Positions 10,060 to 60,834 of a stretch of DNA of 64,000 bases are shown in pieces. The stretch is taken from positions 3,224,001 to 3,288,000 of the forward strand of contig NZ_CP099222.1 of NCBI RefSeq assembly GCF_029717145.1, read 5' to 3'. The stretch's first letter is position 1. Each line of letters begins with the position of its first letter. The notes under the pieces were generated by a model. That model saw nothing but the letters and a program-made list of their open reading frames with translations. It was not told where the DNA came from and ran no database searches. The DNA is from Citrobacter freundii. Lineage in GTDB: Bacteria; Pseudomonadota; Gammaproteobacteria; Enterobacterales; Enterobacteriaceae. A program made the position numbers and the translations under genes.

Positions 10060-10137
10060 TCTTATGTAGGCCCGGTAAGCGCATGCGCCACCGGGCAATG
10101 TGCCGGATGGCGACGAAAACCGCCATCCGGCCTACAG
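10060..10137. repeat. REP/BIME repeats between ybhC and ybhJ
   Basis: Between two converging genes lie 'taggcccggtaagcg...cgccaccgggc' and 'gccggatggcg...cgccatccggc', paired REP units that can fold into hairpins in either transcript. Confidence 0.8.
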
Positions 10138-42684: not shown

Positions 42685-44253
42685 TTAGCGTGCCGGCTGA
42701 GAAGTCACAGTGGACTGCTCGTAGTGATAACGACCGGTTTTCAGGCTGCTCGGGCCAAGGCGTGCGAACTTGAACATCAGGTACAGTTCAGCCACCAGGA
42801 ACAGGGTATACAGGCCGCAAATCAACAGCATCGAGAAGATCAGGTCGCCCGCAGTCAGTGACGAGTTCGCCACGGCTGTCGGTAGCACTTCACCTATCGC
42901 CCACGGCTGACGCCCGTACTCTGCAACAAACCAACCGGACTCAATCGCAATCCATGGCAGCGGAAGCGCATACAGCGCCGTGCGCAGCAGCCATTTTTTC
43001 TCACCGATACGGTTACGAATGACGGTCCAGAAGGAAACCGCAATGATAGCCAGCATCAGAATGCCGCACGCCACCATGATACGGAACGCAAAGTACAGCG
43101 GAGCGACACGAGGAATAGAATCTTTCGTTGCCTGCTGAATTTGTGCTTCGGTCGCGTCGGTCACTTTGTCGGTATAGCGTTTCAGCAGCAGACCATATCC
43201 CAGGTCTTTCTTCATGCTGTTGAACTGGTCACGAACGGCCTGATCGGTGGAACCCGCACGCAGTTCTTCCAGCATCTGATACGCTTTCATCCCGTTACGG
43301 ATACGCTCTTCGTGCTGCACCATCAGGTCTTTCAGACCAATGACCGGCGTATCAACAGAGCGGGTGGCAATGATGCCCAGCGCGTAAGGGATTTGAATCG
43401 CAAAATGGTTTTCCTGCGCATCCTGGTCCGGAATACCGAACAGCGTAAAGGATGCCGGTGCAGGCTGGGTTTCCCACTCTGCTTCAATCGCGGCAAGTTT
43501 GGTTTTCTGCACGTCGCCCATTTCGTAACCGGACTCATCACCCAGAACGATAACAGACAGAATGGCAGCCATACCGAAGCTGGCAGCGATGGCAAAAGAA
43601 CGCTTAGCAAATGCGAAGTCACGACCGCGCAGCATATAGTAAGAGCTGATACCCAGAACGAACATCGCGCCGCAGACATAACCAGACGCTACAGTGTGAA
43701 CAAATTTCACCTGTGCAACCGGGTTAAGCACCAGTTCAGAGAAGCTCAGCATCTCCATGCGCATGGTTTCGAAGTTGAAATCCGCTGCAATTGGGTTTTG
43801 CATCCAACCGTTCGCCACGAGGATCCACAGCGCAGACAGGTTTGAACCCAATGCCACCAACCAGGTGACGCACATATGCTGGACTTTACTCAGACGGTCC
43901 CAGCCGAAGAAGAACAGACCTACAAAGGTGGATTCGAGGAAGAAGGCCATCAAACCTTCGATCGCCAGCGGCGCACCGAAAATATCCCCGACATAGTGGG
44001 AATAGTAAGACCAGTTAGTCCCGAACTGGAACTCCATGGTCAGACCGGTAGCCACACCCAGAGCGAAGTTGATACCAAACAACTTGCCCCAGAACTTGGT
44101 CATATCTTTATAAATCTGTTTGCCGGAAAGGACGTAGACCGTTTCCATGATGGCCAACAAAAACGCCATACCCAGCGTTAGTGGCACAAAAAGGAAGTGG
44201 TACATCGCGGTCAAGGCAAACTGTAAGCGCGACAGTTCGACTATATCTAACAT
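42685..44253 (-). CDS. cydA: Cytochrome bd-I ubiquinol oxidase subunit I CydA
   Basis: The catalytic haem subunit of 522 residues, as in E. coli. Haem ligand His19 is in TAMYHFLF, His186 in [11 protein letters not shown] and Met393 in [10 protein letters not shown]. The Q-loop (about 250-380) is of the long type, with [21 protein letters not shown]. The second of two consecutive ATGs is preferred since GGAG is then five bases away. It supports respiration at low oxygen, matching the anaerobic context of the neighbouring glutamate operon. Confidence 0.97.
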
Positions 44254-44592
44254 CATGACTCCTTGCTCATCGCATGAAGACTCCGAGAGTGAACCCCGTT
44301 AGAAAGGGTCACACGCATGCCCCAATACAAATTTATTTGCGTCCTTCCACCGTCGCTCTTTCTTCTCATTTGAAGAAAGGACAATGATGAAAAGTTACAA
44401 ACATGTTAATAAAACACTCAAATTGATCCCGCAATTATATTACGCCGTAAAATCCTTACAATAAACAGGTTTTTATCGAGACAAATTTGCATTTTTCGAT
44501 AGTGATCAATTTATAGCTAATTTACCACTTTCAGACCAATTTGATCTGCAGCAATTTAACCTCATTTGATGAGGTTTACCAAGTTTTAAACA

Positions 44593-44997: not shown

Positions 44998-45479
44998 GTC
45001 ATTCCTTCTCTATGCTTATGCGGCAAAGATTAAATATGTTCCGAACAATCTATTATCATTTTTATCTTAAATTTAACAAAAAATATTTCTGCCATATAAG
45101 ATATATAAATAAAAAAACGTTATGTCGTTCACAAGTTATTTAGTGAACCTACCTTTTTATATTATTAAAAATCGCACATTAAAACCTCGCATAACAAAAT
45201 AAGATTTTGATCACAAAGATGGCAAGTCATTTATTAGTGAATTTACTAACAAAATGACAATGCGACAAAAACAACAACACAACTCATTGAATCATCACAG
45301 ATTTACCAAAATGCAATTATAACAATCATTTTAATCAGGATATTTTGAAAATAGATCAATTGCTTCCTTTTCAGCTTCCACAGAAACTCCGACTCTATTA
45401 AGAGGTTGTCACAATCCATGTTCTAAATATTAAAAAATAATTTTTACTTATTGACCATCAGCCCTACAGAGGATTCCCC

Positions 45480-45929
45480 ATGAAGAAATCTACACTTGTT
45501 ATTGGCGTTATCGGTGCTGACTGCCATGCAGTAGGCAATAAAGTTCTGGATCGCGTTTTTACCTCCCACGATTTTCACGTAATCAACCTCGGGGTGATGG
45601 TGAGTCAGGATGAATATATTGATGCCGCGATTGAAACAGGCGCGGATGCCATCGTGGTGTCATCTATCTATGGCCACGGTGATATCGACTGCCTCGGCTT
45701 GCGTGAGCGCTGCATCGAACGTGGCCTCGGCGATATTCTGCTCTATGTCGGCGGCAACCTGGTTGTGGGTAAACATGACTTTGCAGACGTCGAAGTGAAG
45801 TTTAAAGAAATGGGCTTTAACCGCGTCTTTGCACCAAGCCACGACCTGGAAGATGTTTGTGCGCTTATCACCAATGACATTCACCAACACAATGGCCTCG
45901 AGCAGCGTTGCCTGGAAGAGGCTATCTGA
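45480..45929 (+). CDS. glmS: Glutamate mutase sigma subunit (B12-binding)
   Basis: The cobalamin-binding subunit of glutamate mutase, which rearranges L-glutamate to (2S,3S)-3-methylaspartate with adenosylcobalamin. The 149 residues show the base-off motif DxHxxG as [12 protein letters not shown], with His16 as the cobalt ligand, and [12 protein letters not shown] for the nucleotide tail pocket. The name glmS is shared with glucosamine-6-P synthase; mutS is also used. First gene of the operon; 'agagga' lies upstream. Its stop overlaps the next start by one base. Confidence 0.95.
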
Positions 45930-47317
45930 TGCAAACAGTTTCTGTCGATATCGGCTCGACATGGACCAAGGCAGCCCTCTTCGCACATGAAGGTGAAGAA
46001 TTAACGCTGGTAAACCATGTCCTGACCCCAACCACCACACATCATCTGGCAGACGGTTTTTTTGCCAGCCTGAATCAGGTGCTAAATGTTGCCGATGCTC
46101 GCCCGTTACTGAAAAGCGGTGAAGTGCAGTTGAAATACTCCTCGTCAGCCAAAGGTGGACTCGCCGTTGCAGCAATGGGGCTGGTGCCTTCCATTACGCT
46201 GGAATCGGCCAAAGTAACCGCCCATTCGGCTGGCGCAAAAATCGCGCAATATTATTCGTACAAACTTAACCGCCATGACATTCAGGAGCTGGAATCATCA
46301 CCGCCAGACATCCTGTTGTTTACCGGCGGCACGGATGGCGGTGAAGAAAGCTACGGTCTGGCTAATGCGCGTGCACTGGCCGAGTCAAAGCTTGATTGCG
46401 CCATTATCTACGCTGGTAACCGCGACATTCAGGACGATGTGCAAACTCTCCTGGGACATAAAGATCTGACTACGGTAGATAACATCCTGCCCGATCTCGA
46501 CCACCCTAATCCGTTTGCTGCTCGTCAGGCCATTTGCGATGTGTTTTTGTCCCGTATCGTCAAAGGCAAAGGACTGGACGTTATTGTCGGTGAAACCGGC
46601 GAAGAGCCGATGCCCACGCCGTGGACGGTGTATGAACTGGTAAAAGCGATTAGCGACTACGACAGCGCATGGAAGGAATTCATGCTGATCGACATGGGCG
46701 GCGCCACCACGGATGTCTATTCAGCCAGCGCGAATACCCTCTCCCCTGACACCGTTCTGCACGGCGTCCCAGAACCCTTCGTCAAACGTACTGTTGAAGG
46801 CGATCTGGGGATGCGAGTTTCCGCCGTTGTCGTCGGAGAAAGCACGCAGGAAATGGTGAAAGTTATCTTTGCCCAACAGCCACAGCGCGAAGAGGCGTTT
46901 TACCGCTATCTGCGCCATCTGGTTGGGCAACCGGATTACCTGCCACTCAGCGAGGAAGAGAAATATTTCGACACCCTGCTGGCAGGTTTGTGCGTGGGCT
47001 ATGCCACTGAGCGCCACGCGGGCACTAAAAAGCAGGTTTGCACCTGCGTAGGTAACGTGGATTTACAGATGGGTCGCGATCTCACCACCGTACGCAAAGT
47101 TGTCGGTTCAGGGGGATGGCTCTCGCGCGCCAGCCAGTTTGATATTCATAACTGGCTCAAATATCGGGAGTTGGACGACCAGGGTAAAAGAATTCTGTTA
47201 CCGAATCAGTTTGAGTATTACCGCGATTCACATGGCCTGCTCCCTCTACTGGCAAACGTCGCCAGGCTGTACCCGCAAGCCGCTGCTCGCACCAGCATTC
47301 AGTGTTTAACCCTATAA
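45929..47317 (+). CDS. glmL: Glutamate mutase accessory protein GlmL (MutL)
   Basis: An ASKHA/actin-like ATPase of 462 residues, encoded between the two glutamate mutase subunits in all known operons. VSVDIGSTWTKAALF (phosphate 1) and EFMLIDMGGATTDVYS (phosphate 2) are visible. It is thought to reactivate the mutase by swapping damaged cobalamin, by analogy with diol dehydratase reactivases; direct proof is limited. ATG 45929 shares a base with the glmS stop, so an upstream reading is rejected. Confidence 0.92.
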   Translation: MQTVSVDIGSTWTKAALFAHEGEELTLVNHVLTPTTTHHLADGFFASLNQVLNVADARPLLKSGEVQLKYSSSAKGGLAVAAMGLVPSITLESAKVTAHSAGAKIAQYYSYKLNRHDIQELESSPPDILLFTGGTDGGEESYGLANARALAESKLDCAIIYAGNRDIQDDVQTLLGHKDLTTVDNILPDLDHPNPFAARQAICDVFLSRIVKGKGLDVIVGETGEEPMPTPWTVYELVKAISDYDSAWKEFMLIDMGGATTDVYSASANTLSPDTVLHGVPEPFVKRTVEGDLGMRVSAVVVGESTQEMVKVIFAQQPQREEAFYRYLRHLVGQPDYLPLSEEEKYFDTLLAGLCVGYATERHAGTKKQVCTCVGNVDLQMGRDLTTVRKVVGSGGWLSRASQFDIHNWLKYRELDDQGKRILLPNQFEYYRDSHGLLPLLANVARLYPQAAARTSIQCLTL

Positions 47318-47335
47318 AACTTAAGGCAGCTACGA

Positions 47336-48781
47336 ATGGAACTTCGAAATAAAAAACTGACCCATGACGAATTTATGACCGAAAGGCTGCAGGTGTTACA
47401 AACCTGGGAAACCGGCAAAGACGTTGAGAACTTCGAAGATGGCGTGAAGTACCAACAAACAATTCCAGACCAGAAGCGCTTCTCCCTCGCGCTGTTGAAG
47501 GCCGATCAGGAAGGTAAAACCCTGAGCCAGCCGCGTGCAGGCGTTGCATTAATGGATGAGCACATTGCGCTGCTCAAAACATTGCAGCAAGAGTGCGACC
47601 TGCTGCCCAGCACCATCGATGCTTATACCCGTCTGAACCGTTATGAAGAAGCCGCCGTCGGGATCCAGAAATCTATCGAAGCGGGTACGTCCAAGCTGAA
47701 TGGTTTACCGGTCGTCAACCACGGGGTTGCTGCCTGCCGCCGGATGACGGAATCCCTGGAGAAACCTATCCAGGTTCGCCACGGTACGCCAGATGCGCGC
47801 TTGCTGGCAGAAATTGCCATGGCCAGTGGTTTTACCAGCTACGAAGGTGGCGGTATCTCTTACAACATCCCTTACGCCAAGCGCGTCACCCTGGAAAAAT
47901 CCATCCGTGACTGGCAGTACTGCGACCGTCTGATGGGACTGTATGAAGAAAACGGGATTCGCATTAACCGTGAACCCTTTGGTCCGCTGACCGGCACCCT
48001 GATTCCGCCATTCATGTCTCACTCCGTCGCGATCATCGAAGGTCTGCTGGCGCTGGAGCAAGGCGTGAAGTCCATTACCGTGGGCTACGGCCAGGTCGGT
48101 AGCCTGACGCAGGACATTGCTGCGATTCAAGCGCTGCGTGAACTGTCACACGAATACTTCCATAACTACGGCTTCGACGACTATGAGCTGAGCACCGTAT
48201 TCCACCAGTGGATGGGCGGATTCCCGGAAGACGAAGCGAAAGCTTTCTCCGTCATCGCCTGGGGTGCGGCAGTGGCTGGCATGTCTGGCGCAACGAAAGT
48301 GATCACCAAGAGCCCCCATGAAGCATTTGGTATCCCGACTGCGGCAGCAAACGCCCAAGGCCTCAAAGCGTCACGTCAGATGCTGAACATGGTTAGCGAC
48401 CAGAAATTCCCGCAGTGCGCAGCCGTGGAGCAGGAAGTAGAACTGATTAAGAGCGAAGTCCACGCAGTGCTGAAGAAAGTCTTCGAACTGGGTAATGGCG
48501 ACATTGCACGCGGTACCGTGCTGGCCTTTGAAGCAGGCGTACTGGACGTGCCTTTCGCACCTGCAGCCTGTAATGCTGGCAAAATCCTGCCGGTTCGCGA
48601 TAACTCAGGCGCAATCCGTATTCTTGAAGCCGGCTCCGTACCGTTGCCGAAAGATATTCTCGCCCTGCACCACGACTACGTCGCAGAGCGCGCCCACTTT
48701 GAAGGCCGCAAGCCTTCTTTCCAGATGGTCATTGATGACATCAACGCCGTATCCCACAGTAAATTAATAGGAAGACCATAA
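47336..48781 (+). CDS. glmE: Glutamate mutase epsilon subunit
   Basis: The catalytic TIM-barrel subunit of 481 residues that binds glutamate and the adenosyl group. Blocks GLPVVNHGVAACRRMTE, RHGTPDARLLAEIAMASGFTSYEGGGISYNIPYAK split at residues 148-182, and HQWMGGFPEDEAKAF are characteristic, including the Arg residues that grip the substrate carboxylates. Its stop overlaps the mal start by one base. Confidence 0.95.
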   Translation: MELRNKKLTHDEFMTERLQVLQTWETGKDVENFEDGVKYQQTIPDQKRFSLALLKADQEGKTLSQPRAGVALMDEHIALLKTLQQECDLLPSTIDAYTRLNRYEEAAVGIQKSIEAGTSKLNGLPVVNHGVAACRRMTESLEKPIQVRHGTPDARLLAEIAMASGFTSYEGGGISYNIPYAKRVTLEKSIRDWQYCDRLMGLYEENGIRINREPFGPLTGTLIPPFMSHSVAIIEGLLALEQGVKSITVGYGQVGSLTQDIAAIQALRELSHEYFHNYGFDDYELSTVFHQWMGGFPEDEAKAFSVIAWGAAVAGMSGATKVITKSPHEAFGIPTAAANAQGLKASRQMLNMVSDQKFPQCAAVEQEVELIKSEVHAVLKKVFELGNGDIARGTVLAFEAGVLDVPFAPAACNAGKILPVRDNSGAIRILEAGSVPLPKDILALHHDYVAERAHFEGRKPSFQMVIDDINAVSHSKLIGRP

Positions 48782-50022
48782 TGAAAATTAAACAGGCCCT
48801 TTTCACAGCTGGCTACTCCTCATTTTATTTTGACGACCAGCAGGCCATTAAAGACGGCGCAGGTCACGATGGGTTCATCTATACCGGCACGCCGGTAACG
48901 CCTGGATTTACTTCTGTTCGCCAGGCGGGTGAATGCGTTTCGGTTCAGCTGATTCTGGAAAACGGCGCGGTAGCGGTCGGTGATTGTGCAGCCGTACAGT
49001 ATTCCGGTGCGGGCGGTCGTGACCCGCTGTTCCTGGCAGAGAACTTCATTCCGTTCCTCAACGATCACATCAAACCGCTGCTGGAAGGCCGCGATGTCGA
49101 TGCGTTCCTGCCAAACGCCCGTTTCTTCGACGAACTGAGCATTGACGGTCGTCTGCTGCATACCGCCGTTCGCTACGGCCTGTCTCAGGCGCTGCTGGAT
49201 GCCGCTGCGCTGGCGACCGGTCGTCTGAAAGTAGAAGTCGTATGTGACGAATGGCAGTTGCCATGTGTTCCGGAAGCGATTCCTTTATTCGGCCAGAGCG
49301 GCGACGACCGTTATATCGCCGTAGACAAAATGATCCTCAAAGGTGTGGACGTTCTGCCGCACGCGCTGATCAACAACGTCGAGCAGAAGCTGGGCTTTAA
49401 AGGTGAAAAACTGCGTGAGTATGTGCGCTGGTTATCCAACCGCATCTTAACCCTGCGCACCAACGAAGCGTATCAGCCTACGCTGCACATTGATGTGTAC
49501 GGCACCATCGGTCTGATTTTCGATATGGATCCGGTTCGTTGCGCCGAATACATCGCCAGCCTGGAAGTTGAAGCACAGGGCCTGCCGCTGTACATCGAAG
49601 GTCCGGTTGATGCCGGTAACAAACCGGATCAGATCCGCATGCTGACTGAGATCACCAACGAGCTGACTCGTCTGGGCTCCGGCGTGAAAATCGTGGCCGA
49701 TGAATGGTGTAACACCTATCAGGATATCGTCGACTTCACCGATGCGGGCAGTTGCCACATGGTGCAAATCAAGACCCCGGATCTGGGTGGTGTTCACAAC
49801 ATCGTTGATGCAGTGCTGTATTGCAACAAACACGGAATGGAAGCCTATCAGGGCGGCACCTGTAACGAAACCGAGATCAGTGCACGTACCTGCGTACACG
49901 TCGCGCTGGCCGCGCGTCCAATGCGCATGCTGATCAAACCGGGTATGGGTTTCGATGAAGGTCTCAACATCGTGTTTAACGAAATGAACCGCACCATCGC
50001 GCTGTTGCAGACTAAGGATTAA
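48781..50022 (+). CDS. mal: Methylaspartate ammonia-lyase
   Basis: Eliminates ammonia from 3-methylaspartate to give mesaconate. An enolase-superfamily enzyme of 413 residues, the same length as the structurally solved Citrobacter amalonaticus enzyme and very similar to it. The Mg2+ carboxylates are in LHIDVYG, LYIEGPVD and IVADEWCN, and the catalytic Lys in MVQIKTPDLGG. It overlaps glmE by one base, so mutase and lyase are made together. Confidence 0.96.
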   Translation: MKIKQALFTAGYSSFYFDDQQAIKDGAGHDGFIYTGTPVTPGFTSVRQAGECVSVQLILENGAVAVGDCAAVQYSGAGGRDPLFLAENFIPFLNDHIKPLLEGRDVDAFLPNARFFDELSIDGRLLHTAVRYGLSQALLDAAALATGRLKVEVVCDEWQLPCVPEAIPLFGQSGDDRYIAVDKMILKGVDVLPHALINNVEQKLGFKGEKLREYVRWLSNRILTLRTNEAYQPTLHIDVYGTIGLIFDMDPVRCAEYIASLEVEAQGLPLYIEGPVDAGNKPDQIRMLTEITNELTRLGSGVKIVADEWCNTYQDIVDFTDAGSCHMVQIKTPDLGGVHNIVDAVLYCNKHGMEAYQGGTCNETEISARTCVHVALAARPMRMLIKPGMGFDEGLNIVFNEMNRTIALLQTKD

Positions 50023-50025
50023 GAG

Positions 50026-51396
50026 ATGGCACGCACATTTAAGATCTTATCGCCTACGGCTATCCTGGGTTATGGCTTCCCGGAAGAAAGTTTTCGTAAA
50101 GCCATGGAAGAGTCACCGGATCTTATTGCTGTTGACGCGGGTTCCTCCGATCCTGGCCCCCACTACCTCGGGGCAGGTAAACCGTTTACCGACAGGGCCG
50201 GCGTAAAACGCGATCTGCGCTATATGATCGTAGCAGGCGTTAAGAACAACATCCCGGTGGTCATCGGCACAGCCGGTGGTTCAGGTGCTGCTCCGCATCT
50301 GGAGTGGTGTCGCCAGATTATCCATGAGATTGCGCAGGAAGAAAAACTGTCCTTCTCTATGGCGCTGATCCCGTCTGATGTCGACAAAGAGGTCGTTCAT
50401 CAGGCGCTGGATAACGGCAAAATCACCGCCCTGGATTTTGTCCCTGAACTGACTCACGAGGCGATTGAAGAGAGCACCTACATCGTCGCACAGATGGGCG
50501 TCGAGCCTTTCCAGCGTGCGCTGGAAGCCGGTGCGCAGGTGGTACTGGGCGGACGAGCCTACGATCCGGCCTGCTTCGCCGCACTGCCGATTATGCAGGG
50601 CTTTGATGAAGGTCTGGCGCTTCACTGCGGTAAGATCCTTGAGTGTGCTGCTATTGCCGCCACCCCGGGCTCCGGCTCAGATTGTGCGATGGGGATCATT
50701 GACGACAACGGCTTTACGCTGAAAGCGTTCAATCCAAAGCGTAAGTTCACTGAAACTTCCGCTGCAGCGCACACTCTGTATGAGAAGTCCGATCCGTACT
50801 TCCTGCCGGGACCGGGCGGCGTGCTGAACCTGAAGGCGTGTACCTTCACGCAGGTAAACGACGGCGAAGTGTATGTCAGCGGCTCACGTCATGAAGAGAC
50901 GCCGTATGCGCTGAAACTGGAAGGTGCACGTCAGGTTGGCTTCCGCTGCCTGACCATCGCCGGGACTCGCGACCCGATTATGATTGCCGGAATTGACACC
51001 ATTCTTGAAGAGGTACAGGCAAGCGTAGCACGTAACCTTTCACTGAATGATGACAGTATCCGCATGACGTTCCACCTGTACGGGAAGAACGGTGTGATGG
51101 GCAATCATGAGCCGATTAAAACCGCCGGTCACGAACTGGGGATTTTACTGGACGTGGTCGCACCAACGCAGGATATCGCCAACAGCGTCTGCTCGCTGGT
51201 GCGCTCTACCCTGCTGCACTACGGCTATGAAAATCGCATTGCGACTGCGGGCAACCTCGCTTTCCCGTTCTCGCCATCTGATATTCAGAGTGGTCCGGTG
51301 TATGAGTTCTCAATCTATCACCTGATTGAAGCAAGCGATGCACTGCGTTTTGATTTCCACATTGAACAGGTCACGCCAGAAGGAGTTCAGGCATGA
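50026..51396 (+). CDS. AtuA-like (DUF1446) protein, unknown step
   Basis: A 456-residue cytoplasmic protein of the AtuA/DUF1446 family, named after acyclic terpene use genes. Conserved-looking blocks are LIAVDAGSSDPGPHYLGAGK (about 32-51), IVIGTAGGSGAAPHLEWC-like (about 78-95), VVLGGRAYDPACFAALP (about 171-187) and LHCGKILECAAIAATPGSGSDC (about 197-218). No redox-cofactor motif is obvious. It starts three bases after mal and overlaps the DUF4387 gene by four bases, so the three are one translation unit. A role downstream of mesaconate/citramalate is possible but unproven. Confidence 0.8.
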   Translation: MARTFKILSPTAILGYGFPEESFRKAMEESPDLIAVDAGSSDPGPHYLGAGKPFTDRAGVKRDLRYMIVAGVKNNIPVVIGTAGGSGAAPHLEWCRQIIHEIAQEEKLSFSMALIPSDVDKEVVHQALDNGKITALDFVPELTHEAIEESTYIVAQMGVEPFQRALEAGAQVVLGGRAYDPACFAALPIMQGFDEGLALHCGKILECAAIAATPGSGSDCAMGIIDDNGFTLKAFNPKRKFTETSAAAHTLYEKSDPYFLPGPGGVLNLKACTFTQVNDGEVYVSGSRHEETPYALKLEGARQVGFRCLTIAGTRDPIMIAGIDTILEEVQASVARNLSLNDDSIRMTFHLYGKNGVMGNHEPIKTAGHELGILLDVVAPTQDIANSVCSLVRSTLLHYGYENRIATAGNLAFPFSPSDIQSGPVYEFSIYHLIEASDALRFDFHIEQVTPEGVQA

Positions 51397-51710
51397 AACA
51401 CTCAATTTGTTCACTGGCGCAGGTCATCCGTTCCAAAAATGCCGGACCGTACGAACTGGTTTTAGATATTTTATTTAAAACCAAGGAAGACTATCAACGA
51501 GTAAAAGCGTCCGAGCAATTAACACCGCAACTGATTGCTGGATTATATAATGTCGAGCCTGACTTTATTCATAACATTGTCTGGTTTGACCCGGCAAATG
51601 CGGTAAAGATCGTCATGCCTCGCGATATTATTTCCGGCAACGTCGGTGACAATGATGTTTATGGCGCGCAGCAACATGCTCCATTATTAAGTATTGAGTT
51701 CGATTTGTAA
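51393..51710 (+). CDS. DUF4387 protein, partner of the AtuA-like protein
   Basis: A small 105-residue protein starting MKHSICSLAQVIRSKNAGPYEL. It fits the DUF4387 family, which is typically encoded next to (or fused with) AtuA-like proteins. NAGPYELVLDILF and DNDVYGAQQHAPLL are the recognisable blocks. The ATGA overlap with the gene before it suggests a two-subunit complex. No enzymatic function can be assigned. Confidence 0.8.
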   Translation: MKHSICSLAQVIRSKNAGPYELVLDILFKTKEDYQRVKASEQLTPQLIAGLYNVEPDFIHNIVWFDPANAVKIVMPRDIISGNVGDNDVYGAQQHAPLLSIEFDL

Positions 51711-51798
51711 TAAAAAACAAAATAACAACCATTGGAGCACAGAATTCAGCAGTATCACAGTGCTTCGAAGTATTCATGCGGTTGGTCACAACAGGCGT

Positions 51799-51828
51799 GC
51801 GCCTGAGCTACTGTTCCAGCTCAGGTGC
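51799..51828 (+). other. Hairpin in the 168-base gap before the transporter gene
   Basis: GCCTGAGCT/AGCTCAGGT pairs over an eight-base loop within the largest gap inside the operon (51711-51878). No T-run follows. It may mark an RNA processing site or partial end that separates enzyme genes from transport genes. Confidence 0.5.
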
Positions 51829-51878
51829 CCGCCACCCTACACAATTTTCATTACCAGCCTTTATCCGATGGAGTACAC

Positions 51879-53183
51879 ATGAAGAAAATTAGTTTAACGA
51901 AGATGATCATATTAGGCCTGATACTCGGCATGATTGCCGGGGTGGCCATAAATAATATGGCCGCGGCTGAAACAGCAAAATCTTATGCAGCGGATATTTC
52001 TATTTTCACCACTATATTCTTACGTATGGTGAAAATGATTATCGCGCCATTGGTTATCTCCACACTGGTTGTTGGTATTGCCAAAATGGGCGATGCCAAA
52101 ACGCTGGGACGTATATTTTCTAAAACCTTTTTCCTGTTTATTTGCGCCTCTCTGGTGTCAATTGCGCTGGGTCTGGTTATCGTTAACATCTTCCAGCCAG
52201 GTGCGGGCATCAACTTTGTTCCGCATGACGTCGGTGCTGTCGCAGCCGTTAAGTCAGAGCCGTTCACGCTGAAAGTATTTATCTCGCACGCGGTACCGAC
52301 CAGTATCGTTGACGCGATGGCACGTAACGAAATCCTGCAGATCGTGGTGTTCTCAATTTTCCTCGGTTGCAGCCTGGCCGCCATTGGCGAAAAAGCCGAT
52401 CCTATCGTGAAGGTACTGGACTCGCTGGTACACGTGATGCTGAAGCTGACTGGCTACGTCATGCTGTTCGCACCACTGACCGTTTTTGCTGCGATTTCCG
52501 GTCTGATTGCCGAACGTGGTCTGGGTGTGATGGTGAGCGCCGGGATCTTCATGGGTGAGTTCTACCTGACGCTGGGTATGCTGTGGGCCATCCTGATTGG
52601 TCTGTCAACGCTGCTGATTGGTCCTTGCATCAGCCGTCTGACCAAATCCATTCTCGAACCGGCTCTGCTGGCCTTTACCACCTCCAGTTCTGAAGCGGCC
52701 TTCCCAGGCACGCTGGATAAACTGGAGAAGTTTGGCGTCTCTTCCAAAATTGCCAGCTTCGTACTGCCTATCGGTTACTCGTTTAACCTGGTCGGCTCCA
52801 TGGCCTACTGCTCCTTTGCCACCGTCTTTATTGCCCAGGCGTGCAACATCGAACTGAGCATGGGTGAGCAAATCACCATGCTGTTGATCCTGATGCTGAC
52901 CTCTAAAGGGATGGCGGGTGTACCGCGTGCGTCCATGGTAGTTATCGCCGCTACGCTGAACCAATTCAACATTCCGGAAGCCGGTCTGATCCTGCTGATG
53001 GGCGTCGATCCGTTCCTCGATATGGGTCGTTCTGCCACTAACGTAATGAGTAATGCCATGGGTGCTGCCATCGTGGGTCGTTGGGAAGGTGAACACTTCG
53101 GCCAGGGTTGTCGCGGAACTGCACCAGTGAAAACCCCGGAACAGGATCGTCCGGTTACTGAAACGGAAGTTGCTTTGTCTTAA
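51879..53183 (+). CDS. Dicarboxylate/amino acid:cation symporter (DAACS) homologue with altered ion site
   Basis: A GltP/DctA-type inner-membrane carrier of 434 residues with about eight helices and two hairpins. The HP1 serine motif TTSSSEAAFPGTL is normal. The conserved NxDGT motif reads NLVGSM (Val305 replaces Asp), and the C-terminal NVxGD reads NVMSN (Asn392 in place of Asp, a change also known from DctA). Gly-Arg before the latter (LDMGRSATN) keeps the amino-acid-type Arg. Likely substrate from context: glutamate, or exchange of glutamate with a C5 acid. ATG 51879 follows 'ggagtacac'. Confidence 0.88.
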   Translation: MKKISLTKMIILGLILGMIAGVAINNMAAAETAKSYAADISIFTTIFLRMVKMIIAPLVISTLVVGIAKMGDAKTLGRIFSKTFFLFICASLVSIALGLVIVNIFQPGAGINFVPHDVGAVAAVKSEPFTLKVFISHAVPTSIVDAMARNEILQIVVFSIFLGCSLAAIGEKADPIVKVLDSLVHVMLKLTGYVMLFAPLTVFAAISGLIAERGLGVMVSAGIFMGEFYLTLGMLWAILIGLSTLLIGPCISRLTKSILEPALLAFTTSSSEAAFPGTLDKLEKFGVSSKIASFVLPIGYSFNLVGSMAYCSFATVFIAQACNIELSMGEQITMLLILMLTSKGMAGVPRASMVVIAATLNQFNIPEAGLILLMGVDPFLDMGRSATNVMSNAMGAAIVGRWEGEHFGQGCRGTAPVKTPEQDRPVTETEVALS

Positions 53184-53202
53184 TCATTTGATAACTGCGA
53201 TC

Positions 53203-53304
53203 TGTAGACCGGGTAAGGCGTTTACGCCGCTATCCGACAAGAGAGCCACACCTGATGGCGACGCGAAGCGTCTTACCAGGTCGATAAGGTTTTTCCGGTC
53301 TACG
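53203..53304. repeat. REP/BIME inside the operon, between transporter and glutaminase genes
   Basis: 'gtagaccgggtaaggcg...cgccgctatccg' and 'cctgatggcgacgcgaag...ggtctac' form paired palindromes. REP units inside an operon commonly stabilise upstream mRNA and lower downstream expression. Confidence 0.75.
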
Positions 53305-53337
53305 GATCTTTTTTCACAACACCACCAGGAAAACACA

Positions 53338-54339
53338 ATGAATAAAACACTTCTCGGCGTAAGTCTCTTTTCTTTCAGCGTCTTGTTTAGCGCAACAACG
53401 TTCGCGCAAACCACGCCGGATTACGCCAAACTGATCGAACAGGCACACCAGAAATTTAAAAGTAACAATGACGGAAAAGTCGCCGACTATATCCCTGCTC
53501 TGGCGACCTATAGCCCGAAAAATTTTGCCATCACCATTGCCACCGTTGACGGCAAAATCTACCAGGTTGGCGATGTCAACAAACCCTTCCCGATGGAATC
53601 CCTGAGCAAAGTCTTCACCATGGCATTGGCTATGGAGCAGCATGGCCCACAGGTGGTTCTGGATAAACTCGGCGCCAATGCCACCGGCATGCCATTCAAC
53701 TCAGGCTTAGCCGTTGAACTGACTAAAGGCGCACCGGAAAACCCGCTGGTTAATGCCGGCGCAATGAGCACCGTTAGCCTGATTGAAGCCAAAGACAAAA
53801 CCGATCGTTGGAACAAAATCCTCGATAACCTGAACGTCTGGGCAGATGCCAAACTGACCGTGAACGAACCGGTGTTCAAATCTGAAATGGATACCAACCA
53901 GCACAACCAGGCGCTGGCGAAGCTGATGGAATCCTACAACAGCTTCTATGGCGACACCGACGAAGCCGTTGAAATTTATACCCGTCAATGCTCAGTCGAT
54001 ATCACCGTTGAGCAACTGGCCAAAATGGGTGCTGTCCTCGCCAACAAAGGAAAGTCTCCGTTTAACGGCAAGCAGTTGTTGAACGAAAAATATGTGCCGC
54101 AAGTATTGGCTGAAATGGCGATTGCCGGGTTGTACGACGGCAGTGGCAAGTGGCTGTATACCGTCGGCCTGCCGGCGAAAAGCGGCGTTGGCGGCGGAAT
54201 GGTTGCTGTTGTCCCGGGTGAATATGCGATAGCTGTTTATTCTCCGCCGCTGGATGAAGCCGGTAACAGCGTTCGTGCCCAGAAAACTATCGAATATGTC
54301 GCCGAAGCGACAAAAGCCAACGTCTTTTTAGCGAAATAA
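53338..54339 (+). CDS. glsA: Glutaminase with a predicted export signal
   Basis: A beta-lactamase-fold glutaminase that hydrolyses glutamine to glutamate and ammonia (333 residues). The nucleophile motif SxxK is S88-L-S-K91 in PMESLSKVFTMA; GNPLVNAGAM-like ENPLVNAGAMSTV, EIYTRQCSVDIT and LPAKSGVGGGMVAV blocks are present. Unlike the ordinary cytoplasmic GlsA (about 308 residues), it carries an N-terminal signal peptide (KTLLGVSLFSFSVLFSATTFA, cut near residue 23). ATG 53338 follows 'aggaaaacaca'. Export would feed periplasmic glutamate to the adjacent carrier. Confidence 0.93.
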   Translation: MNKTLLGVSLFSFSVLFSATTFAQTTPDYAKLIEQAHQKFKSNNDGKVADYIPALATYSPKNFAITIATVDGKIYQVGDVNKPFPMESLSKVFTMALAMEQHGPQVVLDKLGANATGMPFNSGLAVELTKGAPENPLVNAGAMSTVSLIEAKDKTDRWNKILDNLNVWADAKLTVNEPVFKSEMDTNQHNQALAKLMESYNSFYGDTDEAVEIYTRQCSVDITVEQLAKMGAVLANKGKSPFNGKQLLNEKYVPQVLAEMAIAGLYDGSGKWLYTVGLPAKSGVGGGMVAVVPGEYAIAVYSPPLDEAGNSVRAQKTIEYVAEATKANVFLAK

Positions 54340-54341
54340 GC

Positions 54342-54424
54342 CCGTGCCGGATAGCGCTAATGCGTATCCGGCCTCCTCGCTAAAACTTCTCCGGCCAGCA
54401 AAGTTTACTTTTTTGTTGGCCGGA
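54342..54424. repeat. REP unit and long hairpin before fumD
   Basis: A REP palindrome ('gtgccggatagcgc...gcgtatccggc', 54345-54372) is followed by TCCGGCCAGCAAA/TTTGTTGGCCGGA (54390-54424), a 13-bp stem with one G-U pair. Together they separate glsA from fumD mRNA. No clean T-run follows, so read-through is likely. Confidence 0.7.
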
Positions 54425-54462
54425 ACCGACGTTACCTAAAAACCTAAAGGTGAGAAGTAAAA

Positions 54463-56115
54463 ATGTCTAAACCATTTGTCTGGCAGGAACTCTTTGTTCA
54501 GAGTAAAGATAATACAGAATATGAATTACTCACTAACCAATACGTTACGGTAACTGAGTTAGACGGAGAGGAAGTGATCAAGGTGGCGCCTGAGGCGTTA
54601 ACCTTGTTGGCACAGCAGGCATTTTATGAAGCGTCCTTTTTCCTGCGCGCCGGACATTTGAAGCAAGTAGCCAGCATTTTGCACGACCCGCAGGCCAGCA
54701 GTAACGATAAATATGTCGCACTTCAACTGCTGCGCAATGCGGAAGTTTCCGCCAAAGGCGTACTGCCCAACTGCCAGGATACCGGCACCGCAACGATTGT
54801 TGCCAGCAAAGGACAGCAGGTCTGGACCGGCGGCGATGACGCGGAAGCATTAAGCAAAGGCGTGTATACCACCTTCACGGAAAATAACCTGCGCTATTCG
54901 CAAAATGCCCCGTTGGATATGTACACCGAGGTCAACACCCAAACGAACCTGCCTGCGCAAATCGACATCAGTGCAACTCCGGGTAACGAATACCGCTTCC
55001 TGTTCGTCAATAAAGGCGGCGGCTCGGCCAACAAAGCGGCGCTGTATCAAGAAACCAAGTCCATTCTGCAGCCAGAAAAACTCACCGCCTTCCTGATCGA
55101 GAAAATGAAATCACTGGGCACCGCTGCCTGTCCGCCGTATCACATTGCGTTCGTCGTGGGCGGGCTCTCTGCCGATCAATCGCTGAAAGTGGCGAAGCTG
55201 GCTTCAACAAAATATTACGATAACCTGCCAACCAGCGGCAACGAACTGGGTCAGGCGTTCCGCGATACCGCACTGGAGACGGCGTTGCTCAATGCCAGCC
55301 GCGAGTTTGGTATTGGCGCACAGTTTGGCGGTAAATACTTCGCGCACGACATTCGCGTCATTCGCCTGCCACGCCACGGTGGCTCCTGCCCTATCGCCAT
55401 GGCCCTCTCCTGCTCTGCAGACCGCAATATTAAAGCCAAAATTAATAAGCACGGTATTTGGCTGGAGAAACTTGAACATAATCCGGGAAAATTTATTCCC
55501 GATTCTCAGCGCGTAGAAAACAGCGGTCAGACCGTACAACTGAATCTGGATCGTCCGCTGCGCGAGATCATGCAGGATCTGTCCGTACTGCCGATTGGCA
55601 CCCGACTGTCACTCAGCGGCCCAATTGTCGTTGCCCGCGATATCGCCCATGCCAAGATCAAAGAACGTCTGGATAACGGCGAACCGATGCCGGAATACAT
55701 GAAAAATCACATTGTGTATTACGCCGGTCCCGCCAAAACGCCTAACAATCTGGCCTGCGGTTCAATGGGCCCCACTACCGGCGGGCGCATGGACGGTTAT
55801 GTCGATGCTTTCCAGGCAGCAGGCGGCAGTTTGATCATGTTGTCAAAAGGCAATCGCAGCAAGCAGGTGACCGATGCTTGTCAGAAGCATGGTGGATTTA
55901 ACCTTGGCAGCATCGGCGGCGCAGCGGCCCTGCTGGCCCAGCAGTATGTGAAGAGCCTGCATTGTCTTGAATATCCTGAACTGGGTATGGAAGCGGTGTG
56001 GATGATGGAAGTGAAAAATATGCCCGCCTTTGTATTAGTGGATGACAAAGGCAACAACTTCTTTAGTCAGTTTGAGCAGCAGCATCGCTGCACAACCTGC
56101 CCTGCAGGACATTAA
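54463..56115 (+). CDS. fumD: Class I fumarase/mesaconase FumD
   Basis: An iron-sulfur class I fumarase of 550 residues. The cluster cysteines are C104 (LPNCQDTGT), C223 (AACPPYH) and C317 (ALSCSADR), equivalent to FumA C105/C224/C318. The C-terminal domain has [19 protein letters not shown] and [15 protein letters not shown]. In E. coli O157:H7 the FumD homologue, clustered with glutamate mutase and methylaspartate ammonia-lyase genes, prefers mesaconate over fumarate and makes (S)-citramalate. The same job is expected here, directly after mesaconate formation. Confidence 0.93.
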
Positions 56116-56124
56116 GGAGCAACA

Positions 56125-56727
56125 ATGGAAGTGCGAGCCAATGACGACAGGCACCGCCAGCGTCAGCAGAAACTGAAAGATCAGGTTGATACCCGCGTGG
56201 CGGCGGCAACGGAAAAGAAAGGGATTTTGATTGTCTTCACCGGCAACGGTAAAGGAAAATCCACTGCCGCCTTTGGTACCGCGACGCGCGCGGTCGGCCA
56301 TGGAAAAACCGTTGGCGTCGCGCAGTTTATTAAAGGCCAGTGGGATAATGGCGAATACAACACGTTACAACCGCTCGGCGTTGAATTCCATATTATGGGA
56401 ACCGGCTTCACCTGGGAAACCCAGAACAAGGAAGCGGACATTGCGGCAGCAACGGTGGTCTGGCAGGAAAGTAAGCGCATGCTCGCCGATGCGCACTACG
56501 ACCTGGTCGTACTGGATGAACTGACGTATATGTTGGCGTATCACTATCTGGATACTCAGGAAGTGATCGCTGCCATCGAGAATCGTCCAGCCGAACAGAG
56601 CGTAATTGTCACGGGCCGCGGATGCCACACGCTTTTACTGGAACTTGCCGATACGGTCAGTGAGATGCGTCCGGTCAAGCACGCGTTTGATAGCGGTATT
56701 CAGGCACAAGTTGGGATTGACTGGTAG
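56125..56727 (+). CDS. cobO: Corrinoid adenosyltransferase, BtuR/CobO type (second copy expected in genome)
   Basis: Transfers adenosyl from ATP to Co(I) corrinoid, producing the adenosylcobalamin that glutamate mutase needs. The 200 residues show the unusual P-loop GNGKGKS at 40-46, QFIKGQWDNGEYN, and LVVLDELTYML. It starts nine bases after fumD ('aaggagcaaca') and closes the operon. Enterobacteria already have btuR beside the trp region, so this copy looks dedicated to local cofactor supply. The housekeeping copy is outside this window. Confidence 0.93.
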   Translation: MEVRANDDRHRQRQQKLKDQVDTRVAAATEKKGILIVFTGNGKGKSTAAFGTATRAVGHGKTVGVAQFIKGQWDNGEYNTLQPLGVEFHIMGTGFTWETQNKEADIAAATVVWQESKRMLADAHYDLVVLDELTYMLAYHYLDTQEVIAAIENRPAEQSVIVTGRGCHTLLLELADTVSEMRPVKHAFDSGIQAQVGIDW

Positions 56728-56769: not shown

Positions 56770-57672
56770 TCACGTCACTGACACCACAGATTTACCGAGT
56801 AACCAGTTACGGAAAGTCTGTAAATGCGGAGATTCCGCCTTCTCTTCACGCCACGTCATAATGAACCGGTTGCCGGTACGCATCGGGACATCGCAGGGAA
56901 TCACCATATCACCGCAGTCCAGATCGTGCTGAATAGCAAATCGGGGTAACAACGCGACGCCCAAATTCGAGCGTACCGCCGCGATCAGCATCGAGAGCAA
57001 ATCAAAGCGCGGACCTTTATTGACTAACGGACTGCTGACATCAGACAACGCAAACCATTCCTGCCAGCCTTTGATACGCGTACTTTGGTGCAACAGAGGA
57101 AACTCATTCAGCAGATCGGTTACCGCCAGCTTGCGATCGGCTTCGTTCAGCAGGCATCTGCTGCATACGGGTAAAATTTCCTCTTCGAAAAGGTACTCCA
57201 CCCCAGACCATGGCGAGTAAAAATCTTCCCGCATGATTGCCGCGTCGTATTCACGATTGAGAAAATCGCCGATATTCGCCAAAGAGTGAATATTAACGAT
57301 AATATCAGGGTTAAGTTTATTGAACTCACGTAAGTTAGGAATCAGCCAGTGCGTACTAAACGTAGGATTAACCGCCAACTCAATAACCTGCACGGTCGGT
57401 TGCCAGGTCATTATGGTGGTGGTGTCACGTTCCAGTTTGTTAAGCGTTTCCTTGACGATAGTTAAATAATGCTTCCCTGCCGCATTTAAGAAAATTCGCT
57501 TTTTGGCATGATTAAATAGCGCTGTATTTAGAAAGTCCTCCAGCGCATTCACCTGGCGAAAAACAGCACTTTGTGTCAACGCAAGCTCTTCTGCTGCCCG
57601 GGTATAACTTTCGTGACGCGCAACCACTTCAAAAGTTACCAGCAACTCCGTCTTCGGTATTTTTCCTCTCAT
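56770..57672 (-). CDS. LysR-family transcriptional regulator, probable local regulator
   Basis: A LysR regulator of 300 residues. The helix-turn-helix (about 5-65) includes LLVTFEVVARHESYTRAAEEL and LTQSAVFRQVNALEDFL; an effector-binding domain starts near 90. The second Met (57672) is taken as start because GGAAG sits five bases before it; Met at 57684 has none. Convergent with the glutamate operon and divergent from the methyltransferase gene. It could respond to a C5 acid or amino acid, but neither target nor ligand can be read from the sequence. Confidence 0.88.
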   Translation of the reverse strand: MRGKIPKTELLVTFEVVARHESYTRAAEELALTQSAVFRQVNALEDFLNTALFNHAKKRIFLNAAGKHYLTIVKETLNKLERDTTTIMTWQPTVQVIELAVNPTFSTHWLIPNLREFNKLNPDIIVNIHSLANIGDFLNREYDAAIMREDFYSPWSGVEYLFEEEILPVCSRCLLNEADRKLAVTDLLNEFPLLHQSTRIKGWQEWFALSDVSSPLVNKGPRFDLLSMLIAAVRSNLGVALLPRFAIQHDLDCGDMVIPCDVPMRTGNRFIMTWREEKAESPHLQTFRNWLLGKSVVSVT

Positions 57673-58077
57673 AACCTCTTCCATATGCAGCGTACAAAAT
57701 AAGTTTAATTTATAAAATAAATTTCATTACACCCAGACAAGCATCGAAAGTTATATTTTATTTTGTCCATTGATGTCATTGATCCAATCCATGATTTACT
57801 CACACTGAGGCGGATAAATATTAACCAATAATACGCAAGCCGGGCAATAAACACAATTTAAATAAGGTTAAACATGGGCAAATAGTGCTTATAAGTTCTT
57901 AATAATTTTTCAAATGATCTTGTTTATTGCAGAAAAAACTATGCGAGTTTAATCAATATTATTGCTGCGATATTTTAGGATAATTTAGTGTTATAACCAC
58001 CCGGCAAACGACTGCTTTAAATCATTCCTTGATGTAGTTTCTGCCATTCTAATGTTAGACGTGATAAAGGACACAAT
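57673..58077. other. 405-base divergent gap between the LysR and methyltransferase genes
   Basis: Very AT-rich with no reading frame of note. It must hold promoters for both genes. I saw no cobalamin-riboswitch core (no B12-box-like sequence) in it. Confidence 0.65.
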
Positions 58078-58866
58078 GTGAAAACTTTCGGAAAGGTCTG
58101 GCTCGTTGGCGCCGGTCCCGGTGATATATCGTTACTCACCCTCAAAGCAATGATGTGCATTAAGCAGGCCGATGTCATTATTTACGACAGGCTGGTCAAT
58201 CCTAAAATTTTGGAATGGGCGGCACCTGATTGCCAGCTCATCAATGTCGGCAAAAATCCGGGCTTTCATTGTGTGCCACAGGATGAAATCAACGCGTTGC
58301 TGGTCCAGTATGCTGAAACCCATCACCATATCGTGCGCTTAAAAGGCGGCGATCCTTACGTGTTTGGCCGGGGGGCTGAAGAAGTTGAGGATCTCGTGGA
58401 AATCGGCATACCTTTTGAAGTCGTACCCGGCATCAGTTCCACTATTGGCGGCCTGACCTGCGCCGGTATTCCAGTCACGCATCGCGATTATGCTTCAGGA
58501 TTTCACGTGGTCACCGGTCATACGCGTGAAGGAAATCAGCAGCAGGACTGGCGTCAGCTGGCCAAACTCAACGGTACGCTGGTTATCGTGATGGGGATCG
58601 CCAATCTGGCGTTTATTTGTGAAGAGTTGCTCATGGGGGGAAAATCTGCCGACACCCCCGCCGCTATTATCATGTCCGCTACGCGGGAGAATCAGCGCCG
58701 ACTGACTTGTACATTGGGGTCATTACTGAACAAAGCGCAGGAAGCGAACATCGTGCCACCCGCGCTGATCGTTATCGGTGAGGTTGTGACCCTAAGCGAC
58801 AGACTGTCTTTTATTCCTGAAGCCCTCGCGCTACCGGAAAGCCTCTACTGCGAAAGTCTCGCGTGA
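58078..58866 (+). CDS. cobA: Uroporphyrinogen-III C-methyltransferase (SUMT)
   Basis: Methylates uroporphyrinogen III at C2 and C7 to precorrin-2, the branch point to B12 and sirohaem. The 262 residues hold the signature VGAGPGD (10-16), the YDRLV block and GGDPYVFGRG. It begins at GTG 58078 with AAAGGA upstream; the nearby ATG at 58076 runs straight into TGA. It is a single-domain CobA, unlike fused CysG, so it is probably extra capacity for corrinoid synthesis beside a B12-dependent operon. It overlaps the pocR-like gene tail-to-tail by 22 bases. Confidence 0.93.
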   Translation: MKTFGKVWLVGAGPGDISLLTLKAMMCIKQADVIIYDRLVNPKILEWAAPDCQLINVGKNPGFHCVPQDEINALLVQYAETHHHIVRLKGGDPYVFGRGAEEVEDLVEIGIPFEVVPGISSTIGGLTCAGIPVTHRDYASGFHVVTGHTREGNQQQDWRQLAKLNGTLVIVMGIANLAFICEELLMGGKSADTPAAIIMSATRENQRRLTCTLGSLLNKAQEANIVPPALIVIGEVVTLSDRLSFIPEALALPESLYCESLA

Positions 58867-59738
58867 CGAAAAGACTGGGGTGACGTTTGATGCGCCGCCC
58901 GGAAAACACGGCAAAAGTAACTGGTTTGCGCGTACTGAAGTTTCCGGGCAATGCTGTCTATTGAATGCACAGGATCATGCAATAACTCGCCAGCTTTTTG
59001 CATTTTCTTCTGATTCACCCATGTTTTAAAATTCACTCCCTGACGCTTCTTAAAGAAGCGGCTAAAATAGTTAGCACTCAAACATACATGCGCTGCCACG
59101 GATTCAAGAGATAGCTCACTATATAAATTCTCATCAATATAACGTAGCGCTTCCATGAGTTTCTTTTCATGCCGGGAAAGCTCAGTAAAATAAATCTGCG
59201 GGGCGCTTACTTTAGGGTTATTAACCATTTCATCTACCGTATTCTTTCGTTCATAATTATTAACAATAAAGTTCAGTAAGTTTGCCGACGCGGTCAATAT
59301 ATTATTATCTACAACAATCACGCGATCCCATGCAGCCTTTATTTCAGGGTCGCTCATCCATTGTGATTGCTCATCTATAACTATCGTTTTATATTCCTGA
59401 TATTTGGCTCGTACTTGGCCACAGATAATAAAACCGCAAAGATTCCCTTCATTAATGAGTGGCATTGAGAAGAGGCTTAATCCTGCATAACAGCAGAGTA
59501 TTCTTGGTTTTAGCTGTTTTAACCCTTCAAAAGCGCAATACTTATCACACTTTTGACAACTCGCTCGGTACTGTTCATTGGTACGCATGAGTGTACAGAA
59601 TGCGTTAAAATTATGGCAATCCGATATCACCTTGCCTGTAACATCAATCACTACCGTCGCTAATCCTGTCGCTCTGGCAAAAACATCGGCGATGGAGAAA
59701 AAACACTGTAAGTCGTCATCCTTAATTTTCAGCGGCAC
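58845..59738 (-). CDS. PocR-like AraC-family regulator
   Basis: A 297-residue regulator with an N-terminal PocR sensory domain (about 8-165) and a C-terminal AraC double helix-turn-helix (about 195-295, SLESVAAHVCLSANYFSRFF, DSIARKLQYAQTSYFCRVF). The Cys cluster CQKCDKYC and ILCCYAG is typical of PocR domains. PocR of Salmonella switches on cob/pdu genes with propanediol. GTG 59738 is chosen because GGAGG lies five bases upstream; the TTG at 59753 is less likely. Here it probably couples corrinoid supply to the glutamate pathway; the signal is unknown. Confidence 0.88.
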   Translation of the reverse strand: MPLKIKDDDLQCFFSIADVFARATGLATVVIDVTGKVISDCHNFNAFCTLMRTNEQYRASCQKCDKYCAFEGLKQLKPRILCCYAGLSLFSMPLINEGNLCGFIICGQVRAKYQEYKTIVIDEQSQWMSDPEIKAAWDRVIVVDNNILTASANLLNFIVNNYERKNTVDEMVNNPKVSAPQIYFTELSRHEKKLMEALRYIDENLYSELSLESVAAHVCLSANYFSRFFKKRQGVNFKTWVNQKKMQKAGELLHDPVHSIDSIARKLQYAQTSYFCRVFRAAHQTSPQSFRHARLSQ

Positions 59739-59874
59739 GCCATCCTCCGGCAATGTTGATATTAAAGCCGGTAATATGCAGAATTTAGTCTAAAGAAAGA
59801 ATGATGCTGACCGCAAAAAATAATCTCATTTGTGAAGATGATTGTGATCAAATTTCAAGATGGTGGATTGCAGA

Positions 59875-59964: not shown

Positions 59965-60834
59965 TTACTTAATCACGGTCTTCAGCGCTTCGCCGATATC
60001 AGCCAGGCTGCGTACGGTTTTCACACCAGCGGCTTCCAGTGCAGCGAACTTCTCATCCGCCGTCCCTTTACCACCAGAGATAATCGCGCCCGCATGGCCC
60101 ATACGTTTGCCTTTCGGCGCGGTCACGCCAGCGATGTAGCCGACAACCGGTTTGGTCACATGATCTTTAATGTAAGCTGCGGCTTCTTCTTCCGCGCTGC
60201 CGCCGATCTCACCGATCATGACAATCGCTTCGGTTTGCGGATCTTCCTGGAACAGCTTCAGAATGTCGATAAAGTTAGAACCAGGGATTGGATCCCCACC
60301 GATGCCCACACAGGTGGACTGGCCGAAACCGTAGTCAGTGGTCTGCTTAACCGCTTCATAGGTCAGCGTACCGGAACGGGAAACGATACCCACTTTGCCC
60401 GGTTTGTGAATGTGACCCGGCATGATACCGATTTTGCATTCGCCCGGGGTGATAACGCCTGGGCAGTTCGGGCCAATCATACGCACGCCTGCTTCATCCA
60501 GCGCCACTTTCACGGTCAGCATATCCAGCGTCGGAATACCTTCGGTGATGGTGATGATCAGTTTGATGCCCGCGTTGACAGCTTCCAGAATGGAGTCTTT
60601 GCAGAACGGTGCCGGTACGTAGATAACTGACGCAGTCGCGCCGGTCGCTTCTACCGCTTCACGTACGGTGTTGAACACCGGCAGACCCAGATGGGTGGTG
60701 CCGCCTTTGCCCGGCGTAACGCCACCGACCATTTGTGTACCGTAAGCAATCGCTTGTTCTGAGTGGAATGTCCCCTGGCTGCCGGTGAAGCCCTGGCAGA
60801 TTACCTTGGTATCTTTATTAATTAAAACGGACAT
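59965..60834 (-). CDS. sucD: Succinyl-CoA synthetase alpha subunit SucD
   Basis: The alpha subunit of 289 residues, which binds CoA and carries the phosphohistidine. [18 protein letters not shown] is the CoA site; the active-site His is in [16 protein letters not shown]. It shares one base with the sucC stop (TAATG). Confidence 0.97.

Follow-up and report, generated by a model that had tools for sequence, protein, structure and literature searches.

A ten-gene cluster of Citrobacter freundii predicted to carry glutamine and glutamate through the methylaspartate route to pyruvate and acetate

Gene content and layout of the cydA-sucD interval

Analysis of a 64,000-nucleotide (nt) stretch of the Citrobacter freundii chromosome (contig NZ_CP099222.1 of assembly GCF_029717145.1, positions 3,224,001 to 3,288,000; hereafter the window) revealed ten co-directional genes on the + strand between cydA, which is divergent to them, and sucD (Table 1), both flanking genes being named from comparison with the annotated region of Escherichia coli O157:H7 Sakai. 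All ten are free of internal stops, and each exceeds a Pfam cut-off. Together they very probably constitute a catabolic operon on the chromosome, by which glutamine and glutamate would be broken down along the methylaspartate route to pyruvate and acetate. A preliminary description of the same DNA had set the limits of the operon exactly (45480-56727) and recognized the common direction of its genes, but counted nine of them and led the route only to (S)-citramalate; this is right as far as it goes, yet it omits cmlA and cmlB (50026-51710), which move the end point to pyruvate and acetate.

Table 1. Features of the operon and its surroundings (window coordinates)
Feature	Position	Strand	Basis
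cydA, left flank	42685..44256	-	
Conserved TCACAAA upstream of glmS	45211..45217	+	invariant in 29 aligned upstream regions
Conserved box TTGAAAATAGATCAATTG upstream of glmS	45345..45362	+	17 bases invariant in 29 upstream regions
glmS, glutamate mutase B12-binding subunit	45480..45929	+	TIGR01501 and NF002612 above cut-off
glmL, glutamate mutase accessory protein	45929..47317	+	NF040745, 509.8 bits (cut-off 475)
glmE, glutamate mutase large subunit	47336..48781	+	TIGR01503, 834.7 bits (cut-off 390.1)
mal, methylaspartate ammonia-lyase	48781..50022	+	TIGR01502, 546 bits (cut-off 286.15)
cmlA, predicted citramalate lyase subunit A (AtuA/DUF1446 family)	50026..51396	+	match to PDB 9erq_A / 9evf
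cmlB, predicted citramalate lyase subunit B (DUF4387)	51393..51710	+	match to PDB 9erq_B / 9evf
SDF dicarboxylate/amino-acid:cation symporter, probable glutamate carrier	51879..53183	+	PF00375
glsA, glutaminase	53338..54339	+	PF04960; NF009020, 426 bits (cut-off 395)
fumD, mesaconase/fumarase	54463..56115	+	NF011921 (PRK15392 equivalog), 1214 bits (cut-off 1060)
cobO/btuR-type corrinoid adenosyltransferase	56125..56727	+	TIGR00708, 243.3 bits (cut-off 167.75)
LysR-family regulator, candidate operon activator	56770..57684	-	PF00126 and PF03466
Extra uroporphyrinogen-III C-methyltransferase (SUMT)	58078..58866	+	TIGR01469, 310.6 bits (cut-off 185)
PocR-like AraC-family regulator	58845..59753	-	PF10114; PocR equivalog 270.8, below cut-off of 500
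sucD, right flank	59965..60834	-	

Entry of glutamine and glutamate into the methylaspartate pathway, also part of the preliminary description, is borne out by family matches above curated cut-offs, with GlmS, GlmE and GlmL passing at the equivalog level and Mal passing TIGR01502. The assignment of FumD as a mesaconase likewise held, since the protein passed NF011921 while falling below the cut-off of the FumA model (907 versus 1105 bits), which places it as a mesaconase of the class I fumarase type; it shares 86% identity with Sakai ECs_0757. The glutaminase begins with MNKTLLGVSLFSFSVLFSATTFAQ, a start that by eye resembles a secretion signal, and the enzyme is probably exported.

The first six genes, glmS to cmlB, overlap or are separated by 3-18 nt, including a 4-nt overlap of the adjacent cmlA and cmlB, and the adenosyltransferase gene starts 9 nt after fumD. 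The overlaps or short gaps noted in the preliminary description are thus real for the first six genes but not for the carrier, glutaminase and fumD genes, where the distance to the preceding gene widens to 168, about 154 and 123 nt, respectively. These three larger gaps hold predicted hairpins (51745-51860, 53184-53310 and 54340-54440; z -4.1, -4.0 and -6.5), in each case more stable than all 200 shuffles, raising the possibility that they are processing sites or boundaries of separate transcription units. We do not label them repetitive extragenic palindromic (REP) elements, since the single window match to a typed REP-type pattern, at 10102, fell outside the operon. Scans for promoters and terminators gave no excess over shuffles (16 versus 15.4 and 18 versus 17.3, respectively), and Rfam at gathering thresholds gave no match in the operon and so no cobalamin riboswitch. 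The glutaminase gene, which lies between two hairpin gaps, is the gene absent from the Sakai version of the cluster.

In the pathway that we propose, the glutaminase, probably acting outside the cytoplasm, would hydrolyse glutamine to glutamate, and the SDF carrier would import the glutamate. Conversion to 3-methylaspartate would be carried out by GlmSE, kept in working order by GlmL and supplied with adenosylcobalamin by the adenosyltransferase of the operon together with the cell's own corrinoid pathway (cbiD is present in the genome). Mal would then yield mesaconate and ammonia, FumD would hydrate mesaconate to (S)-citramalate, and CmlAB would split (S)-citramalate into pyruvate and acetate. 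We infer from the sequence that the pathway carries flux in this strain, that its genes share one transcript and that they are under LysR control.

The last step of the pathway

The products of cmlA and cmlB belong to the Pfam families AtuA and DUF4387, respectively, and neither matched an NCBIfam model at E 0.001. The cmlA product aligned over 456 of 456 residues with PDB 9erq_A (E 9.5e-303) and the cmlB product over 104 of 105 residues with 9erq_B (E 1.7e-63), both sequences being identical in entry 9evf; the molecules in these entries are named 'Citramalate lyase, subunit A (cmlA)' and 'subunit B (cmlB)'. Foldseek searches with AlphaFold2 models (mean predicted local distance difference test score 83.9 for CmlA and 93.6 for CmlB) paired CmlA with 9evf_A at 97% identity and a template modelling (TM) score of 0.94, and CmlB with 9evf_B at 92% and TM 0.98. 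In the fold searches of both models against the PDB, 9evf was the only entry at E <= 0.001, and no wider fold family was found. Similarity to the deposited proteins extends over the full length of both window proteins, yet the sequences are not identical, and by eye chain A looks like a protein of the Klebsiella oxytoca group. By sequence and by fold, the cluster thus encodes homologues of a citramalate-cleaving enzyme, with the same activity predicted, and because cmlA and cmlB match a solved citramalate lyase, pyruvate and acetate are the expected end products of the encoded pathway.

Entry 9evf was released 2025-10-08 under the title 'Citramalate lyase - ADP - pyruvate complex', and the adenosine diphosphate named there suggests that a nucleotide assists CmlAB in cleaving citramalate. 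We tentatively raise the possibility, about which we are more doubtful than confident, that CmlAB is a third kind of citramalate-splitting enzyme, in which a nucleotide activates the free acid through an intermediate resembling an acyl phosphate, as opposed to a thioester with acyl carrier protein or coenzyme A (CoA). If so, three unrelated solutions for the last step would have become attached to the glm-mal core, namely CmlAB, CitDEF, and a family III CoA-transferase with a CitE-like lyase, and a general chemistry for the DUF4387 and AtuA families would become possible.

The only citF above cut-off in this genome (G000:C1:3379913-3381310) belongs to a citrate lyase cluster some 105 kb away from cmlA, in which citD, citF, citX and citG exceeded the NCBIfam cut-offs and citE fell just below (437 versus 443). 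The operon itself has no citF and hence no CitDEF-type lyase, for which citD, citE and citF would have to lie in the cluster. The genome contains one AtuA-family gene and two HpcH/HpaI-family genes above cut-off, the latter being the CitE of the citrate cluster and a GarL-type aldolase, so that this family offers no candidate for a citramalyl-CoA lyase in the genome.

A scan of contigs with Mal as the sole query found 90 relatives, and the best 80 loci were kept, so that the sample leans to close relatives; gene presence was scored by tblastn at E 1e-3. Sixty-two of the 80 mal loci contained cmlA and/or cmlB: both in 60, cmlA only in L124 (a 3.8-kb contig) and cmlB only in L127. Where cmlA was found it lay directly downstream of mal (60 of 61 loci), except in L126, where it lay upstream. 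A further six loci had citF, five had a CitE-like gene without citF and seven had none of these, and cml genes and citF never occurred together (0/80). Both types are found within Bacillota (L118 and L126 placed there by title), with cml in L111, L114, L118, L119, L124, L126 and L127 and citF in L120, L121, L123, L125 and L128, suggesting that one citramalate lyase was replaced by another within this phylum. In L101, one of the five CitE-like loci without citF (with L097, L103, L108 and L110), Pfam matches show mal and the CitE-like gene to be separated by a family III CoA-transferase, with a class I fumarase alongside. Relatives of this CoA-transferase (63-80% identity) adjoin mal in the other four, and no further one was found among the 80 loci at E 1e-10; its presence beside mal in all five suggests, from gene order, a CoA-ester route for the last step. 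As for the seven loci with none of these genes, the contig of L122 is cut and in L112 the mesaconase genes stand 6 kb from mal, and the lyase in such loci may lie beyond the flank examined.

Several individual loci departed from the common arrangement. In L080 (11242-11694), from an Enterobacteriaceae metagenome-assembled genome, the carrier gene directly follows mal and no cmlAB was found. The best piece of cmlA in L085 (11247), from Yersinia aldovae, covers only 51%, possibly reflecting a broken or mis-sequenced gene. Two Escherichia loci, L074 and L075, have no carrier gene and matched the adenosyltransferase only in part, a pattern that suggests operon decay. The Sakai record (L001, 10547-12231) labels cmlA as another 3-methylaspartate ammonia-lyase, in addition to mal, and gives cmlB the name of acyl-CoA synthetase; both labels look like misannotations.

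Upstream box and distribution

Comparison of the upstream region in the window with those of 28 loci hand-picked from the 80, all Enterobacteriaceae, revealed the two conserved elements of Table 1, the box containing an invariant 17-base run TGAAAATAGATCAATTG at 45346-45362, as well as an invariant AGGATT at 45470-45475, near the glmS start. The TCACAAA element is one that we take to resemble a CRP half-site. With its T-N11-A dyad, the arrangement typical of LysR-type operators, and a LysR gene linked to the operon, the box is a candidate operator. The LysR-type regulator encoded at the 3' end of the operon would thus probably act on the box, 135 nt before glmS. At no more than one mismatch, the 15-mer TTGAAAATAGATCAA occurred in 32 of 76 upstream regions versus 1 of 1520 randomised copies, and every one of the 32 loci with the box also carried lysR (73-100% identity). 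Sakai and a Salmonella plasmid both carry the box without a mismatch. In the C. freundii genome, the 17-mer at up to two mismatches gave one match, exact and at this site, and the reversed control also gave one, so that the rarity of the box says little and its conservation is the evidence.

All ten genes were found in 13 of 15 other genomes of the genus, the remaining two regions being cut by the coordinates fetched, which indicates that the cluster is not a chance assembly. Of 15 window proteins used as queries, 14 matched locus L049, from Citrobacter gillenii UMG736, at 99-100% identity, a match by which the species would most likely be C. gillenii; the remaining protein, that of sucD, would fall at or beyond the end of that locus. 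Five further regions comprised L043, with all ten genes, and four with only weak glmE relatives (29-39%), in some cases accompanied by weak glmS, glmL or lysR relatives. DUF4387 was present in 16 of 60 genomes searched, namely all 16 of the same genus (our genome included) and none of the 44 others; in the mal-locus scan it extended beyond the genus to Klebsiella, Salmonella, Enterobacter, Yersinia, Morganella and others. PF06368 matched in 7 of 398 genomes of the phylum (again including our own), six of them above the cut-off. Among 5426 E. coli genomes, coverage of 80% or more was reached for the window operon in 1033, for the Sakai sequence running from glmS into the carrier gene in 1079, and for mngAB in 3872; these totals, the only figures compared, fit mutual exclusion of the cluster and mngAB. 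In Salmonella Macclesfield, all ten genes and the upstream box are located on a 416-kb plasmid that typing classed as conjugative (L002, 6001-17145), with transposase genes and a LysR gene downstream of the operon.

Relation to the published cluster and competing readings

An enterobacterial glutamate-fermentation cluster was described by Kronen and Berg in 2015, who name C. freundii in a list in the text (PMC4682846), so that what the preliminary description found had already been reported. The legend of their Fig 5 lists GltP, FumD, CobA, a LysR-type transcriptional regulator, GlsA, SumT and DUF1446, referring to Fig 4 for GlmS, GlmE, MutL and Mal; Table 2 names locus ECs_0757, and the activity of O157:H7 FumD was demonstrated (PMC4682846). 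The preliminary description was correct in pointing to a related published cluster in O157:H7, and the Sakai cluster occupies the same cydA-sucD slot as that of the window; unlike the window, it lacks glsA, and neither a SumT nor a PocR gene stands between its LysR gene and sucD. The clostridial methylaspartate cluster of the Fig 4 legend shares GlmS, GlmE, MutL, Mal and a mesaconase of the class I fumarase type with the window, but its putative lyase is of the CitDEF type, in whose place the window has CmlAB (PMC4682846). In the parts of the paper available, the fate of (S)-citramalate was left unclear, the DUF1446 protein has no assigned function and the word DUF4387 does not occur (PMC4682846), whereas in the window both proteins match the solved citramalate lyase. 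The operon is therefore already described in outline, and the citramalate lyase assignment, itself in public structure records, is the main update: a cluster left without a clear end product in 2015 can now be read to completion, present-day structures placing a citramalate lyase inside it.

The unclear fate of citramalate in the published account (PMC4682846), together with the citrate lyase cluster elsewhere in the genome, would agree with an operon that ends at (S)-citramalate, to be excreted or cleaved by citrate lyase. However, the match to a structure deposited as citramalate lyase is made by two genes lying between mal and the carrier gene, and citrate-grown O157:H7 possessed citrate lyase activity while citramalate lyase activity was absent (PMC4682846); we consider this reading highly improbable. 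A role in nitrogen supply or in acid tolerance through ammonia release, more than in fermentation, is also unlikely, even though the operon includes a glutaminase, an enzyme whose role in acid resistance is mentioned by Kronen and Berg (PMC4682846), and ammonia would be released by both glutaminase and Mal. Ammonia release alone would not need FumD or CmlAB, and besides the lack of glsA in the Sakai cluster, at least 80% of the window glsA was found at the DNA level in 0 of the 5426 E. coli genomes, 28 genomes among the matches listed having a match over about a fifth of the gene or less.

The preliminary description had also seen a functional meaning in the position beside cyd and suc, which would tie the operon to low oxygen and the tricarboxylic acid cycle. 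Comparison of the cydA-sucD interval, proposed there as a check, bore out the same slot in Sakai and mngRAB in E. coli K-12, a different gene set annotated for mannosylglycerate uptake and cleavage that fills the same interval; the ten-gene set, however, also occurs elsewhere, away from any visible cydA. The ten genes stand in the same order in 27 loci. Divergent cydA adjoins them on the left in 17 (in one as an edge fragment only), and two others are cut contigs; in the remaining eight, out of 25 whose left flank is long enough, about 6.7 kb of flank contains no cydA. One of the eight, L060 from C. amalonaticus, nevertheless retains SUMT and PocR on its right and could be this slot enlarged by additional DNA. 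The box is kept in four loci with no cydA in view (L058, L069, L072 and L073) and on the Salmonella plasmid, so that the cyd/suc neighbourhood does not look essential to the operon, and a functional role for this position appears very unlikely.

A catabolic operon leading to pyruvate and acetate is thus the reading that we prefer, and the following points weigh against it. The carrier fell below the cut-offs of both the GltP and DctA models, so that glutamate is a presumed substrate, and the stable hairpins in the three gaps make a single transcript less than certain. Ten loci beyond those with the box have a lysR relative (27-63% identity) and no box at up to one mismatch, although five of these, all Yersinia, have a three-mismatch form of it. 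Since 48 of the 80 mal loci are, judged by record title, from Enterobacterales, the counts are not independent. A literature search on CmlAB, DUF1446 and DUF4387 returned no paper describing CmlAB among the matches listed, many of which concerned an unrelated cmlA, so that the activity of CmlAB rests on the molecule names and entry title in the PDB. Finally, under the conditions used, E. coli O157:H7 showed no anoxic growth on glutamate and neither Mal nor citramalate lyase activity, and the authors could identify no condition in which the cluster genes were expressed (PMC4682846); these negative growth and activity results leave operation in vivo unproven. The operon offers a simple test of CmlAB function, and its candidate operator a means of finding the inducing condition that eluded Kronen and Berg.

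Two genes on the right flank may link the operon to corrinoid supply: between the LysR gene and sucD are an additional SUMT gene and one of the two PocR-domain regulators of the genome (Table 1). The other PocR-domain gene, at G000:C1:1828656, is some 4 kb away from cbiD.

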